Part shown: positions 26,107 to 31,891 of the stretch, piece by piece
Layout: the number at the start of each line of letters is the position of its first letter
Numbering within the stretch: position 1 is the first letter of the stretch
From: Planctomycetota bacterium
GTDB lineage: Bacteria > Planctomycetota > J058
DNA length: 34,193 bases
Reading direction: 5' to 3'
NCBI GenBank assembly: GCA_020425635.1
Contig: JAGQRJ010000237.1
Location: forward strand, 1-34,193
The notes under the pieces: generated by a model
The model's database searches: none
The model's input: only the letters and a program-made list of their open reading frames with translations
Told to the model about the DNA's origin: nothing
Program-made: the position numbers and the translations under genes

Positions 26107-26290
26107 GATCCTCCCAAGGCACTGAGAGCAATGGAGGTGCCGGAGGTGTAAAGCCCTGCGTCACGAGTCCGTAAAAGGCGGCTGGAACCGACTCTGTGCA
26201 CTTCGTTCGCGGCCAAGGGTCGAATCGGGGGGGGCGCGAACCGAAAAAACCAGAAGACGGGTGTGATATTCAGGGCCTGGACTCACATAC

Positions 26291-28228
26291 TTGAGCGTGG
26301 AGTGTCCTCCCCTACCTCTGAACCTCGCCCGTGAGTCGGCGATCGGCGACCTCGAGGCCCATGCCCTCGAGTGTTCGCGCTGCGCCGAGCGGCTCGGCGA
26401 CCTCCGGCGGGTGGACCGCGTGCTTCGGGCCGCGGTGGCTTCCCGCGAGGTGGCGCCGCCTTGCCCGCCTCCCGGTGCGCTGCTCGGCACCCTGACCCCC
26501 GCCGCGATCGAGCACCTCTCCGAGTGCGCGGACTGCCGCTACGCCCTGCGCGCCGCGCGGGCCGCCGACGCGGGGGCCGCCCACGGGTGCGTGACCTGGG
26601 ACGCCGCGCTGCTCTACCCGCAGGACACCCAGGGCAGGCAGCGGCTCCAGCGCGCCGAGGCTCACAGCTGGAGCTGCGCGTCGTGCGGAGAAGGGCTCGA
26701 GGCCCTGCGGCTGCGCGAACGCGCCCTGGCCGAGGCCGTGTGCGAGGCGGAGCCACCCACCTCGCGCTGCCCGAGCCCCGAACAGCTCCTCGATTGGCTG
26801 GACCGGCCGCGCGAGGGAGCGCGCCTCGAGCACTTCGTGCGTTGCCGGGAGTGCCGGGAGGACCTCCGCCTGGCCAACGCCGTGGGCCACTCCAGGGGAT
26901 CCGGACGCATGGCGCCGGGCGCTGCGCCCGCGCCCGCGCGCGGGCGCAGCGGTGGCACCTGGACTCAGCGCGCCGTCATGGGGGGGCTCCTGCTCCTGGC
27001 GCTGGGCGCGACCTCGCTCCTGCTGGTCGACGCGGCGCGCAACCAAGACGACGCCCGCGGGACCGGTTCGCAGCCCGACGCCAGCTCCGCCGACGACGTC
27101 TCCCCGACCGGGAGTCGGAGGCGCGACCCTGGGGCGGAGCCGAGGGGGGAGGCTGGCGACGGCCTGGACGCGGGCCGGACGACCCTGAACCCCGACCGAG
27201 GAGCCGGCGGATTGCCCCTGCCCGCGGACCTGACCCGCGCGACGACCGACCGCACTCGGCCTGGACTGGACGACGTGCCGACCAAGCTCCCGCCCCTCGA
27301 GGGCGAGGGTGAGCGCTTCGTGACCGGCAAGAACCCGCTGGACGGCGGCCTGATCAAGGCTCGCGCACAACGGGACCCCCTCGTCCAGGAGGGGGGCCGC
27401 CTCGACGGTCAGGTGCGTCAGGACACCCCCGATGTGGCGACGACGCCCGACGCAGCGCCCCAGACCCTCGTCGTCCTGGCCGCAGACGACGTCGACGTGC
27501 TCACCCCGGGCGCCCTGCAGTGGACGGCGCTCGTCCCGGGGCCGCTCGAAGCCGGATCGCGCCTGCGCACCGCCGACGCCGCGGGCGCCCTCGCCGTCGA
27601 GCAGGCCAGCTTGACCCTCAGCCCCCAGACCAACCTCACCCTGACCGAGGGCCTGGTCCTCAAGACGGGACAGCTCTACGTCGACGGCAACCTCAGCCTC
27701 ACCCACGCCACGTGCGCGGTCGTCGTCGCCGGCCAGGCGTTGTTGCACGGCGTGCCGGGCGAGGTCGCCGTGGCGCTGGTCGCTGGCCAGGCGATCTGCC
27801 GGGACGGCAGCGGGGTCGAGGTTCACCTGCGACCGAGCGAGGTCGTCCATGTCAGCGCCGAAACCGGACTCGGCGCCGTCGAGAGCTTCCCCCCCGAGGA
27901 GGGCACCCCTGGCCCGCCCGAGTGGGTCACCGAGAAGCAAGCCTCCTTGACCCCGACGGGGTCAGCGTCGGGCACCGGCGCGGGCATGGAGGCCGAGACT
28001 CAGACCGGCCACGGCATGGGCAAAGGCGACGACGACCACGACGACAAGGGCATGGGCAAAGGCAAAGGCGACGACGACCACGACGACAAGGGCATGGGCA
28101 AAGGCAAAGGCGACGACGACGACAAGGGCCGAGGCAAAGACGACGACGACGACGACGACGACAAGGGCCGCGGCAAAGGCGACGACGACGACGACGACGA
28201 CAAGGGGAAAGGCGAGGACGACGACTGA
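26291..28228 (+). CDS. Four-module zinc anti-sigma-like membrane protein with FecR-like domain and Asp/Lys tail
   Basis: A 645-residue protein counted from TTG 26291; GTG 26297 is an alternative. The cytoplasmic part contains four H-x3-C-x2-C motifs (H24-C28-C31, H75-C79-C82, H125-C129-C132, H181-C185-C188). Each is preceded by another Cys (5, 58, 100, 160), so each could form a full zinc site like that of ZAS/zf-HC2 anti-sigma domains. One transmembrane helix lies at about 229-247. After a charged, Pro/Asp-rich linker, residues about 390-530 resemble a FecR-type beta domain (VLTPGALQWTALVPG, LRTADAAGALAVEQ, GQLYVDGNLSL). The tail (575-645) is repeats of Gly-Met-Gly-Lys-Gly and Asp runs. The ECF sigma gene follows by 45 bases, so an anti-sigma role is likely. 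Confidence 0.78.
   Translation: MSVECPPLPLNLARESAIGDLEAHALECSRCAERLGDLRRVDRVLRAAVASREVAPPCPPPGALLGTLTPAAIEHLSECADCRYALRAARAADAGAAHGCVTWDAALLYPQDTQGRQRLQRAEAHSWSCASCGEGLEALRLRERALAEAVCEAEPPTSRCPSPEQLLDWLDRPREGARLEHFVRCRECREDLRLANAVGHSRGSGRMAPGAAPAPARGRSGGTWTQRAVMGGLLLLALGATSLLLVDAARNQDDARGTGSQPDASSADDVSPTGSRRRDPGAEPRGEAGDGLDAGRTTLNPDRGAGGLPLPADLTRATTDRTRPGLDDVPTKLPPLEGEGERFVTGKNPLDGGLIKARAQRDPLVQEGGRLDGQVRQDTPDVATTPDAAPQTLVVLAADDVDVLTPGALQWTALVPGPLEAGSRLRTADAAGALAVEQASLTLSPQTNLTLTEGLVLKTGQLYVDGNLSLTHATCAVVVAGQALLHGVPGEVAVALVAGQAICRDGSGVEVHLRPSEVVHVSAETGLGAVESFPPEEGTPGPPEWVTEKQASLTPTGSASGTGAGMEAETQTGHGMGKGDDDHDDKGMGKGKGDDDHDDKGMGKGKGDDDDKGRGKDDDDDDDDKGRGKGDDDDDDDKGKGEDDD
26921..26950. repeat. 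Intragenic 12-bp inverted repeat
   Basis: GCTGCGCCCGCG (26921-26932) and CGCGGGCGCAGC (26939-26950) are perfect complements around six bases. They lie in the part encoding the Ala/Pro/Arg linker just before the membrane helix of the anti-sigma-like protein. In such GC-rich coding DNA it may be coincidence. Confidence 0.5.
28013..28225 (+). repeat. Degenerate tandem coding repeat (Gly-Met-Gly-Lys / Asp-rich)
   Basis: Units of roughly 42-48 bases encode GMGKGKG followed by DDDHDDK. The first units are nearly identical and later ones decay to pure GAC runs. Short GAC and GGCAAA repeats make the array prone to slippage, and the unit lengths are multiples of three so the frame would be kept. Confidence 0.85.
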
Positions 28229-28273: not shown

Positions 28274-28861
28274 GTGAAGACCCGCGCTGAACGGTTCACC
28301 GACGAAAAGAGCCTCGTCGAGGCTCTGATCCGCAACGACGCTGCGGCGTGGGAGGCGTTCGTCCAGCGGTATGAGCCCCTGGTGCTCGGCGTGGCGCGGC
28401 GAACCCTCAACGAATCGGGCGCCAGCGACCCGGACAGCCTGGCCCGCGACGTGACGAACGAGGTGTTCGCGGACCTCCTCGCCGACGATCGCCGCGCCTT
28501 GACCCGCTTCCGGCAGCCCTGGTCGTTCAAGGGTTGGTTGGGGGTCGTCACCGCCCGGCGCGCCCGACGCATGCTGCAGCGCACCTGGCGCCAACCCGAC
28601 CAGGAGCTCCCGGTTGGCGTCTCTGCGGGCGGGCCGTCCCCGGCGTCCGATCTCGGGCGCGTCGAGGAGGTCGAGCACGTGCGACGAAGCCTCGAGGAGC
28701 TCAAGCCGGCGGATCGCTTGGTGCTCCAGCTCTTCTACGAGGGCGGCCACTCCTACAAGGAGATCGCCGAGATGCTCGGGCGCCCGGTCAGCGGCGTGGG
28801 CGTGGTCCTCGCGCGTGCCCGCGAGCGCCTCGGGCGCTTGCTCGAGGCGCGCAGGCGCTGA
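28274..28861 (+). CDS. ECF-family RNA polymerase sigma factor
   Basis: A 195-residue sigma-70-like protein with GTG start. Region 2 covers about 13-105: LIRNDAAAWEAFVQRYEPLV, a DVTNEVFADLL segment corresponding to the core-binding and -10-recognising helices, and FKGWLGVVTARRARRML. Region 4 covers about 130-190: LEELKPADRLVLQLFYEGG and the helix-turn-helix SYKEIAEMLGRPVSGVGVVLARARERL. It lies 45 bases after the zinc anti-sigma-like gene, an inversion of the more common sigma-then-anti-sigma order. No clear ribosome-binding site is visible, so translational coupling or a different start is possible. Confidence 0.88.
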   Translation: MKTRAERFTDEKSLVEALIRNDAAAWEAFVQRYEPLVLGVARRTLNESGASDPDSLARDVTNEVFADLLADDRRALTRFRQPWSFKGWLGVVTARRARRMLQRTWRQPDQELPVGVSAGGPSPASDLGRVEEVEHVRRSLEELKPADRLVLQLFYEGGHSYKEIAEMLGRPVSGVGVVLARARERLGRLLEARRR

Positions 28862-29785
28862 TCAGGCCTGCGGATCGTCCGCGGGGCTGCACACCCGGTT
28901 GCGGCCGGTGTTCTTGGCCCGGTAGAGGGCCGCGTCCGCGGCCTCGAACAGCGCTTCGGGGGAGCTCAAGCCCTGCTTCGTCGCCACGGCCACGCCGAGG
29001 GAGATCGTGACCGGGATCGACCCCCCTGCCACCTCGAAGGCGTGCTCCTCGACCGTGCGCCGCAGGCGCTCGGCGGTGGTCAGGGCGGGCTTGAGCGCCT
29101 GATCGCGGAGCAGGAGCACGAACTCTTCGCCGCCGTAGCGGGCGAAGATGTCTTCCTGGCGAGTCGCGACCTCGATCCGCCGACAGAGCGACTTGAGCAC
29201 CTCGTCGCCCGCGCTGTGCCCGTGGCCGTCGTTGATCCGCTTGAAGTGATCGACGTCGAGCACGATCAGGGCCAGCGGGCAGTCGTGACGAACCGCGAAG
29301 GAGAACTCCGACTTCATGCGGTCGAGGAGGTAGCCCTTGTTGTAGACGCCCGTCAGGGGGTCGCGGACCGCGGAGGAGTAGAGCTCTTGCTGGTAGTTCG
29401 CGGTGAGCGCCGACTGGAAGCGCAGCTCCAGCAAGACGTCGTTGCCGAGCTGGAGCTTGTCGCCGTCGCGCAGCTGATGCGGGTCTTGCCCCAGGGGCTG
29501 GTTGTTGCAGAGCGTGCCGTTGGTGCTCCCCAGGTCGCGCGCGGTCATGGTCCCGTCGCGGGCGAGGGTGACCTCGGCGTGCTTGCGCGAGATCCCGTCG
29601 TCCTGGAAACACACGTCGCACTCGTCACGGGAGCGCCCGAGCACCAAGGCCCCCTCGAAGATCTGGTGCCGATCGCCTCGGTCGATCCCCGCGAGGACGA
29701 TCAGGTAGGGGGACGTTTGCGGGGCGTCGGGGACGAGGTTCTGGCGCCGGGTGGCCAGGGTCTCGCGTTCGGGCGGGAGCGTCAC
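28862..29785 (-). CDS. FHA-domain diguanylate cyclase (GGDEF)
   Basis: A 307-residue cytoplasmic protein. GTG 29785 was chosen because GGTGA lies ahead of it; a TTG at 29821 would add 12 residues. The FHA domain (about 26-122) shows LVLGRSRDECD, ISRKHAEVTL and DLGSTNGTL, the residues that bind phospho-threonine. The GGDEF domain (about 138-300) has VRDPLTGVYNKGYL, GGEEF at 218-222 and the RxxD feedback site at 209-212. It would make cyclic-di-GMP under control of a Thr-phosphorylated partner; the kinase at 18956-20869 is one candidate, by inference only. Its 3' end abuts the sigma-factor gene on the other strand. Confidence 0.9.
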   Translation of the reverse strand: MTLPPERETLATRRQNLVPDAPQTSPYLIVLAGIDRGDRHQIFEGALVLGRSRDECDVCFQDDGISRKHAEVTLARDGTMTARDLGSTNGTLCNNQPLGQDPHQLRDGDKLQLGNDVLLELRFQSALTANYQQELYSSAVRDPLTGVYNKGYLLDRMKSEFSFAVRHDCPLALIVLDVDHFKRINDGHGHSAGDEVLKSLCRRIEVATRQEDIFARYGGEEFVLLLRDQALKPALTTAERLRRTVEEHAFEVAGGSIPVTISLGVAVATKQGLSSPEALFEAADAALYRAKNTGRNRVCSPADDPQA

Positions 29786-29930
29786 AGGTTCACCGTAGCG
29801 CCGACAGGGGTCGGTCGGCAAGTCGAGGCACCTTTCGCCCGCAGGCAGAGCTGGCTTGGCTGTGTAAGCCTCGGGGCAGGGTGCGAACGCGACGGGCTCC
29901 TGCCCAGGAGAACGCAGGGTCGCGGCGAAC

Positions 29931-31511
29931 TCAGCGCGCCCAGACCGGGATCGGTCGCCCGAGGCTCCGGTCTGGGTCGGCCGCGCGGTTGACGAGGCCG
30001 TTGAGGCCGCGGCGGTAGTCGGTGACCTGGCTCTTGGCTTGGCGGGTCGCCTGGCGGTCTCCGAGGGCGATTCCGTGAATGTGCGGGTCGAAGGGGTCGT
30101 GGCCGCGACCCCGACTCCAGGCGGCGAACCCGGCCTGGCGCAGCGACTGAACCATGTGATCGACCGTCGTCCGCGACATGCCTCGGGTCCGCACGTCGAT
30201 CGCGCCGCCGCCGTCGTGGGTCCCGCCGCTCGCGGCCACGGTGCGGTTGTAGCTGCCCTGCACGAGCTGGAAGGCGAAGCCCTCGTGGCGGTATTTTTGG
30301 CGCATGATCACTTTGGCCCGGTCGAGCAGCTCCTTCGTGCGCCGGTTCAGCTGAACGCTGCCATAGGGCCCTGCGACCCGCACGCGGGTGTAGTCGGCCT
30401 TGGGCGCCTTGCGACTGAACTCCGCGAGCCGCTGCGCGACCCGGTCTCCCCGGCGCTTCTCCTCGACGAGGGCGGTCCAGGTGGGGCCGTTGACCACGCC
30501 GTTCGCTCGCAGGCCGTGGTCGCGCTGGAGGGCCTTCACGGCGCGCTCGGTGACCGGCCCGAAGTCGCCGTCGAGGGGGCCGGGGGCGTAGCCACCGCGG
30601 CGCAAGTAGCGTTGGACGCGCAGCACGTGAGGTCCCGAGTCGCCGGAGCGCAGGCCCTTGGTGACCGCGACCTTCCCGGTGGCGTCTTCTCCCTTGGCGG
30701 CCTGACGCAGCTCGCGCCAGGTCGCCGCGTTGGCGACGCCGTTGACGCTGAGGAAGCGCGAGCGCTGAAAGCCGCGCACCTTGGCAGCGGTCAGCGAGCC
30801 GAAGGTCCCATGGCTCGTGCGCGACCAGAACCCCCGGGCGCGGAGCAGGTCTTGCAGCGCGACCACGGCGGGCCCCTTGTCGCCCTGACGGAGGACCGGG
30901 TCGCCCGCGGGGGCGGGCGCGGGGGGCGGCGGGGTCGCGTTCGCGTAGCTGCGAACCAGGCTCAGGAAGTGGTCCCAGCGCCAGTGCCTGCCAGGGTCGG
31001 TGTGCCGGCTCGCGCCGCCGAACGCGCCGCGCGTGTTCGGGTCGGGGACCTCGGAGTGACCGATGATGTGACGGCGGTCGATCGGGATCGTGTAGCGCTC
31101 GCAGAGGTAGGCCACGAGGCGCGCCGAGGCTCGATACTGCGCCGCGGTCGTGTCGGCGCGCGCCGTGAAGCCGCCGTGCTCGATCCCGATCGAGCGCTGG
31201 TTGACCTCCCAGTTGCCCGCGTGCCAGGCGATGTCGTGGTTGGCCACGCTCTGGTAGATCGTGCCGTCCTTCTGCACGTCGTAGTGGGCGCTCGCGTTCG
31301 CGCGTGGACTCTGGAACCACCCCGAGGCGTTCTCGCCCTCGGCCTTGTGGATCACGATCGTGTTCACGAAGCTCCGCTTCGCTGGGGTGAAGTTGCTGCT
31401 GTGGGCGGGGCGCTGCTTGATCGCGGGTCGATCGACCGCGGAGGCCGGAGCCGCGGCGCAGATCGTCGCGGCAAAGGTCGCCGCGACACAGGCGTAGAGC
31501 CGTGTTGCCAT
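29931..31511 (-). CDS. Secreted peptidoglycan amidase with two PG-binding domains and an M15-like peptidase domain
   Basis: A 526-residue exported protein. The signal peptide ends near APASA-VDR (about residue 25). Residues about 48-190 are an N-acetylmuramoyl-L-alanine amidase (Amidase_2 type): VIHKAEG with H55, SAHYDV, IGIEHGG, IIGHSEV, and RHTDPG with H170 and D172 as zinc ligands. Two peptidoglycan-binding domains follow (about 205-270 and 287-350; QGDKGPAVVALQDLLRARGF, RVQRYLRRGGY). Residues about 390-490 look like an M15/VanY-type zinc peptidase, with GGTHDGGGAIDVR (H432, D439) and PHIHG (H479). A protein able to cut both the glycan-peptide bond and the peptide stem is implied. A small hairpin at 29897-29910 may end its transcript. 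Confidence 0.88.
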   Translation of the reverse strand: MATRLYACVAATFAATICAAAPASAVDRPAIKQRPAHSSNFTPAKRSFVNTIVIHKAEGENASGWFQSPRANASAHYDVQKDGTIYQSVANHDIAWHAGNWEVNQRSIGIEHGGFTARADTTAAQYRASARLVAYLCERYTIPIDRRHIIGHSEVPDPNTRGAFGGASRHTDPGRHWRWDHFLSLVRSYANATPPPPAPAPAGDPVLRQGDKGPAVVALQDLLRARGFWSRTSHGTFGSLTAAKVRGFQRSRFLSVNGVANAATWRELRQAAKGEDATGKVAVTKGLRSGDSGPHVLRVQRYLRRGGYAPGPLDGDFGPVTERAVKALQRDHGLRANGVVNGPTWTALVEEKRRGDRVAQRLAEFSRKAPKADYTRVRVAGPYGSVQLNRRTKELLDRAKVIMRQKYRHEGFAFQLVQGSYNRTVAASGGTHDGGGAIDVRTRGMSRTTVDHMVQSLRQAGFAAWSRGRGHDPFDPHIHGIALGDRQATRQAKSQVTDYRRGLNGLVNRAADPDRSLGRPIPVWAR

Positions 31512-31891
31512 GGTGAGTCTGCTTTCTCGGGGAGGGGAGAGGTGCTGGACCCCGTGCAACGCGGGGGCCAGAGCGGTCACGCTCCCTAACTGGTGGCGTC
31601 GTGAGACCCGCGCCCCCGAGCGGCCTCCGCAGGGCGCCAAGTACTCAGTTCAGCTCCCTTTCTTGGGGACCTCGACCCGGGACGCAGCGTGCGCCTGCCG
31701 CGCGTCTCCGCTTCCGCGCTGCAGCAGCCGTCCCCGCACCCTCGGAGACCACTCGCTTTGCAGCGACCTCCCTCCATTGCAGACTCGCTCGCGCTGCCAC
31801 CGCTGGGGTGCACCGATCGCCCAGCGCCTCAGGCGTTCGGGTTGTCCGGGTCCAGGCTCGCTGCCAGCATGCACGCACGAAGCGAGGTCGC
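31512..31891. other. Divergent intergenic region without a recognised gene
   Basis: These 380 bases separate the amidase gene (minus) and a small membrane-protein gene (plus). Open frames present here have no family resemblance and atypical composition, and look like shadows. Promoters for both genes must lie here, but no convincing -35/-10 or sigma-54 pair was identified. Confidence 0.55.

Follow-up and report, generated by a model that had tools for sequence, protein, structure and literature searches.

In the 34,193-nucleotide contig of an uncultured Planctomycetota bacterium analyzed here (the window), a forward-strand gene probably encodes a single-pass membrane anti-σ factor for the ECF σ factor encoded downstream, with a cytoplasmic part formed by an end-to-end duplication of a two-module zinc unit. 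Judged against profiles of homologs, the four zinc modules of the protein are two copies of an ~100-residue A-B unit that its relatives carry once. In this unit we propose that A is a CHCC ZAS three-helix core and B a second, zf-HC2-like module.

In the open reading frame (26291-28228, +; 645 aa from TTG), H-x3-C-x2-C is matched exactly at four places, and each of the four has a cysteine before it (C5, C58, C100, and C160), the C-to-H spacings being 19, 17, 25, and 21 in modules 1 to 4. Within residues 1-190, 12 of the 13 cysteines belong to the four CHCC sets, the remaining one being C151. The GC content per codon position (0.79/0.60/0.89 across 26291-26930) is consistent with the coding frame. 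A chance origin of the motifs is ruled out by shuffling: among 200,000 shuffles of residues 1-210, 195,878 contained no motif, 4,084 contained one, and 38 contained two, while three or four never occurred. The count of four exact motifs with preceding cysteines made in an earlier sequence-only reading is thus borne out. The same reading took the upstream cysteine as an additional feature, and this does not hold. ZAS proteins complete H-x3-C-x2-C with a Cys or His ligand located 23-26 residues before it (PMC4960319), so that this cysteine is the ordinary fourth ligand of a standard CHCC site, as also in RsiW (PMC5358783), and an extra site is rejected. The translation start is likely GTG 26297 (ME-C-P...), 6 nt inside the first listed start, TTG 26291, because a GTG codon is aligned there in the close homologs L027, L028, and L029 and because an element common to five compared loci sits 33-36 nt before the start. 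In L065 and L066 the GTG codon lies a few residues earlier.

Table 1. Features of the anti-σ/σ locus in window coordinates; residues follow the TTG numbering
Feature	Position	Strand	Details
Candidate cis element TGATATTCAGGGCC, window copy of the TGATACATCGAGG-like element	26264..26277	+	33 nt before the GTG start
Predicted anti-σ protein	26297..28228	+	(A-B)-(A-B) zinc modules, TM helix, linker, divergent FecR-like domain, Asp/Gly/Lys tail
Unit 1: A-type module 1 with B-type module 2	26297..26566	+	C5/H24/C28/C31, C58/H75/C79/C82
Unit 2: A-type module 3 with B-type module 4	26579..26887	+	C100/H125/C129/C132, C160/H181/C185/C188
H-x3-C-x2-C motifs			H24ALECSRC31, H75LSECADC82, H125SWSCASC132, H181FVRCREC188
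Single transmembrane helix	26972..27034	+	about residues 228-248; Kyte-Doolittle peak 2.28, residue 228
Putative divergent FecR-like beta domain	27458..27880	+	profile-profile comparison with FecR-type domains (four matched): E 1.4e-4, probability 52%
Low-complexity tail	27971..28225	+	Asp/Gly/Lys, 32 Asp in 85 residues, repeat of period ~36 nt
ECF σ factor gene	28274..28861	+	45 bp downstream of anti-σ; TIGR02937 sigma70-ECF 1.3e-19; Sigma70_r4_2 1.3e-12

The arrangement of the modules as A-B-A-B follows from hidden Markov models (HMMs) of the first (A) and second (B) modules of 12 homologs, built with the window left out, by which modules 1 and 3 are A-type and modules 2 and 4 B-type. The A model scored modules 1 and 3 at 31.6 and 27.8 bits and modules 4 and 2 at 13.8 and 11.9 bits, and the B model scored modules 4 and 2 at 40.8 and 18.2 bits and modules 1 and 3 at 7.2 and 6.8 bits. 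An A model made from close homologs only gave modules 1 and 3 37.8/34.9, compared with 10.7/2.4 for the other two. Four equivalent modules are therefore rejected. The description of zinc anti-σ-type modules in one membrane protein, given in the sequence-only reading, stands, given the ZAS profile matches presented below and the ligands invariant across 14 units, with the correction that the four are two A-B copies. Each half of the protein aligns to the entire two-module stretch of homologs. The unit profile matches the protein twice (1.6e-29 for unit 1 and 2.2e-39 for unit 2), and a unit HMM made without the window sequence scored 46.7 bits for unit 1 and 62.1 bits for unit 2. The ligand positions C4, H23, C27, C30, C57, H74, C78, and C81 do not vary among 14 units drawn from several families of this phylum, a constancy that is in part due to selection, as some of the units came from a profile search.

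The two units are 37% identical. Unit 2 retains an LxPQ stretch that is present in close homologs and missing from unit 1, and the C-to-H spacings of unit 1, 19 and 17, are shortened relative to the 20-24 of close homologs. For the A module, the spacing is 22-25 in most homologs, 25 in module 3, and 19 in module 1. By these comparisons unit 2 is the copy nearer the homolog consensus and unit 1 is diverged. A tree of the units was poorly resolved, the two window units grouping at 62/70.

Comparison of the unit profile with PDB sequences places it among known ZAS anti-σ factors, with matches to DdvA (7e-4), RslA (0.0031), and RsiW (0.015). The fourth match, a CHAT-domain protein (0.016), covers a stretch that is aligned exactly as in DdvA. 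The zinc ligands of RsiW are C3 and H30/C34/C37 (PMC5358783), and these line up with the ligands of the unit profile. The protein shares with RsrA, RsiW, RslA, and DdvA the arrangement C-x(n)-H-x3-C-x2-C, in which the last three ligands would lie across the helix 2/3 junction, and with CHCC ZAS anti-σ factors the adjacent ECF σ gene, the transmembrane segment being as in RsiW. The ZAS ligand pattern occurs four times; the spacing of 25 in module 3 is within the published 23-26, while those of 21, 19, and 17 are shorter. Two further ZAS/ASDI attributes, homology to known ZAS proteins and an adjacent ECF σ gene, are present as well. However, whereas RsrA, RsiW, RslA, and DdvA have one zinc set, the window protein has four, and, unlike in CHCC ZAS factors, every A module is followed by a B module. 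For reference, the class I anti-σ domain consists of a three-helix bundle plus helix 4, with helix 1 on σ4 and helix 4 on σ2 (PMC7406223). A Pfam search with the window protein returned no family at E 1, zf-HC2 included, and the TIGR03988 RsrA model gave only 0.087, under its cut-off. Literature searches for tandem ZAS, two zinc-finger anti-σ factors, and planctomycete zf-HC2 yielded no description of tandem ZAS units.

C terminal to the zinc units, the hydrophobic segment peaks at residues 228-246, and R217, R219, and R227 on the N side of this helix suggest that the zinc units are cytoplasmic. A low-confidence structural model places a helix nearby, at residues 234-253, and beta strands at residues 434-531, in the FecR-like region. 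Assignment of this domain as FecR-like is weak: Pfam did not detect FecR (PF04773) in the window protein, while its FecR match is clear in the related loci L070, L074, and L193. Tails occupy the same place in the close homologs L027, L065, and L066, where they are Gly/Asn/Gln-rich. AlphaFold modeling, for which the input alignments were shallow because they were made from related loci only, gave a mean pLDDT of 62 and a pTM of 0.36 for residues 1-212. In this low-confidence model each HxxxCxxC is located at a helix-helix junction, and a PDB fold search with it returned no match. An in-frame read-through fusion of anti-σ and σ was modeled at a mean pLDDT of 48 and a pTM of 0.29. Both models are too poor for zinc geometry and σ contacts.

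The anti-σ and σ reading frames are in one frame, with a single TGA stop between them. A homologous σ gene adjoins the A-B gene in L027, L065, L066, L067, L068, L070, L075, and L193; past the σ gene, no shared genomic neighbors were found among the compared loci. In the window, two convergent genes follow, encoding an FHA and GGDEF diguanylate cyclase (28862-29821, -) and an N-acetylmuramoyl-L-alanine amidase with two peptidoglycan-binding domains (29931-31640, -), neither conserved beside homologs. The TGATACATCGAGG-like element is present upstream of L027, L028, L029, L065, and L066, with a score that was not reached in any of 40 shuffled sets. Across the four genomes searched, the 15-mer GGTGATACATCGAGG has just two exact copies, each immediately upstream of an A-B gene; a copy with one mismatch accompanies a third A-B gene. 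The window copy is diverged and is a candidate promoter or other cis element. This common element before A-B genes suggests autoregulation by the σ factor. A similar stretch, GGTGATAC, is found on the other strand ~100 nt upstream in L066, before a divergent reading frame. Searches for σ70-type promoters and terminators found none, and a plasmid search gave no match.

The single A-B unit, with a TM helix, a FecR-type domain where detectable, and an ECF σ gene alongside, recurs both within the family and in other Planctomycetota. The same-genome paralog (G000:C166) and the homologs in sister genera have two motifs, not four. Like the window protein, L027, L028, L065/L105 (isolate ACE_NR_PLAN1), L066/L106 (isolate ACE_PLA31), and L067/L108 (isolate OFTM393) combine A-B with a TM segment, a divergent FecR-like domain, and a downstream ECF σ gene, several also having a low-complexity tail; in contrast to its two units, they contain one. 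Of the close relatives that have a name, all but one are Planctomycetota MAGs, the exception being labeled only "uncultured bacterium." Among 392 planctomycete genomes sampled, the four-module profile had two full-length matches, a lower bound because few candidates were scored per genome: the window protein and G279:C306 (L193/L199), from family f78 of the same phylum. The latter is likewise A-B-A-B with a TM segment, an adjacent ECF σ gene, and FecR by Pfam (3.5e-12). However, its σ gene lies upstream, overlapping the anti-σ start, and the protein is extended by an additional C-terminal region. Identity between its two units is 44%, and the family members G304 and G200 carry one unit, so that it apparently arose by an independent duplication in a distant family. 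The step to A-B-A-B thus appears to have been taken at least twice in Planctomycetota.

Several loci depart from these arrangements. L031 (G000:C736, 3-869 -), in the same genome as the window, has three type-B-like zinc modules and ends at the contig edge, and L186 (G164:C247, 484-2157 -) has three zf-HC2 modules (Pfam 7.1e-16), a weak FecR match, and a σ gene directly upstream. L070 (G008:C423, 2429-4846 -) is an A-B anti-σ that also contains FecR and, at its C terminus, a glycogen-binding domain (AMPK1_CBM, 8.8e-10), which may point to a carbohydrate signal. In L072 (G012:C113, 3590-5314 +) a weak σ match (residues 20-158, E 6e-4) and, after it, two zinc modules share one reading frame, a possible σ/anti-σ fusion; Pfam found nothing in it. 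The σ match of L029 (G005:C41, 3485-4590 -) is split across two frames, by an assembly frameshift or in a broken gene.

In the reading we favor, the membrane anti-σ with a duplicated A-B unit, unit 2 would be the main σ-binding site, given its higher score (62 vs 47 bits), its retained LxPQ, and its membrane-proximal position, as in relatives. The zinc sites would chiefly stabilize the fold. The FecR-like domain, outside the membrane, would receive the signal upon which σ is freed, and freed σ may then activate its own operon via the shared upstream element. Diverged unit 1 would most likely serve as an extra grip or as a second, altered binding site; two equal σ sites are not implied, since LxPQ is gone from unit 1. 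A reading in which each A-B unit binds its own σ, either two cognate molecules or one cognate and one encoded beside the C166 paralog, implies 2:1 stoichiometry and steeper or cross-wired release, and we hold it to be a tentative possibility. All eight ligands are kept in both units, relatives pair one unit with one adjacent σ, and the same-genome paralog is an A-B gene with its own σ, 48% identical to the window σ; moreover, window unit 1 is most identical to the paralog unit (38%). However, only one σ gene adjoins the window gene, and the lost LxPQ and short spacings of unit 1 are expected if its partner surface was changed or lost. It is somewhat doubtful that one chain holds two ECF σ factors, possibly its own and the paralogous one, such that one signal would release both together.

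Two other explanations seem improbable. If the four CHCC sites oxidized in turn, the second idea of the sequence-only reading, σ would be released in stages, and RsrA provides a precedent in that its oxidative release needs the N-terminal zinc-coordinating cysteine (PMC4960319), a ligand that is present at all four sites. Its presence is insufficient, however, since RsiW is likewise CHCC and not redox-regulated (PMC5358783), and zinc may be structural in membrane-bound zinc-motif anti-σ factors (PMC7406223); the conserved TM and FecR-like part points instead to an extracytoplasmic signal. We also consider it quite unlikely that unit 1 is a functionless, decaying duplicate, still present simply because the lineage acquired it recently. 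The double unit was found in no other genome of the family, and of the two copies unit 1 has diverged more, but the units have diverged widely and unit 1 still keeps all eight ligands, some of which neutral decay should have lost.

A group of divergent planctomycete anti-σ factors thus escapes Pfam. Anti-σ factors are usually treated as having one σ-binding domain per σ, and the recurrent A-B unit, apparently doubled in two distant planctomycete families, would offer natural material on how such domains are stacked for avidity, stoichiometry, or cross-regulation.
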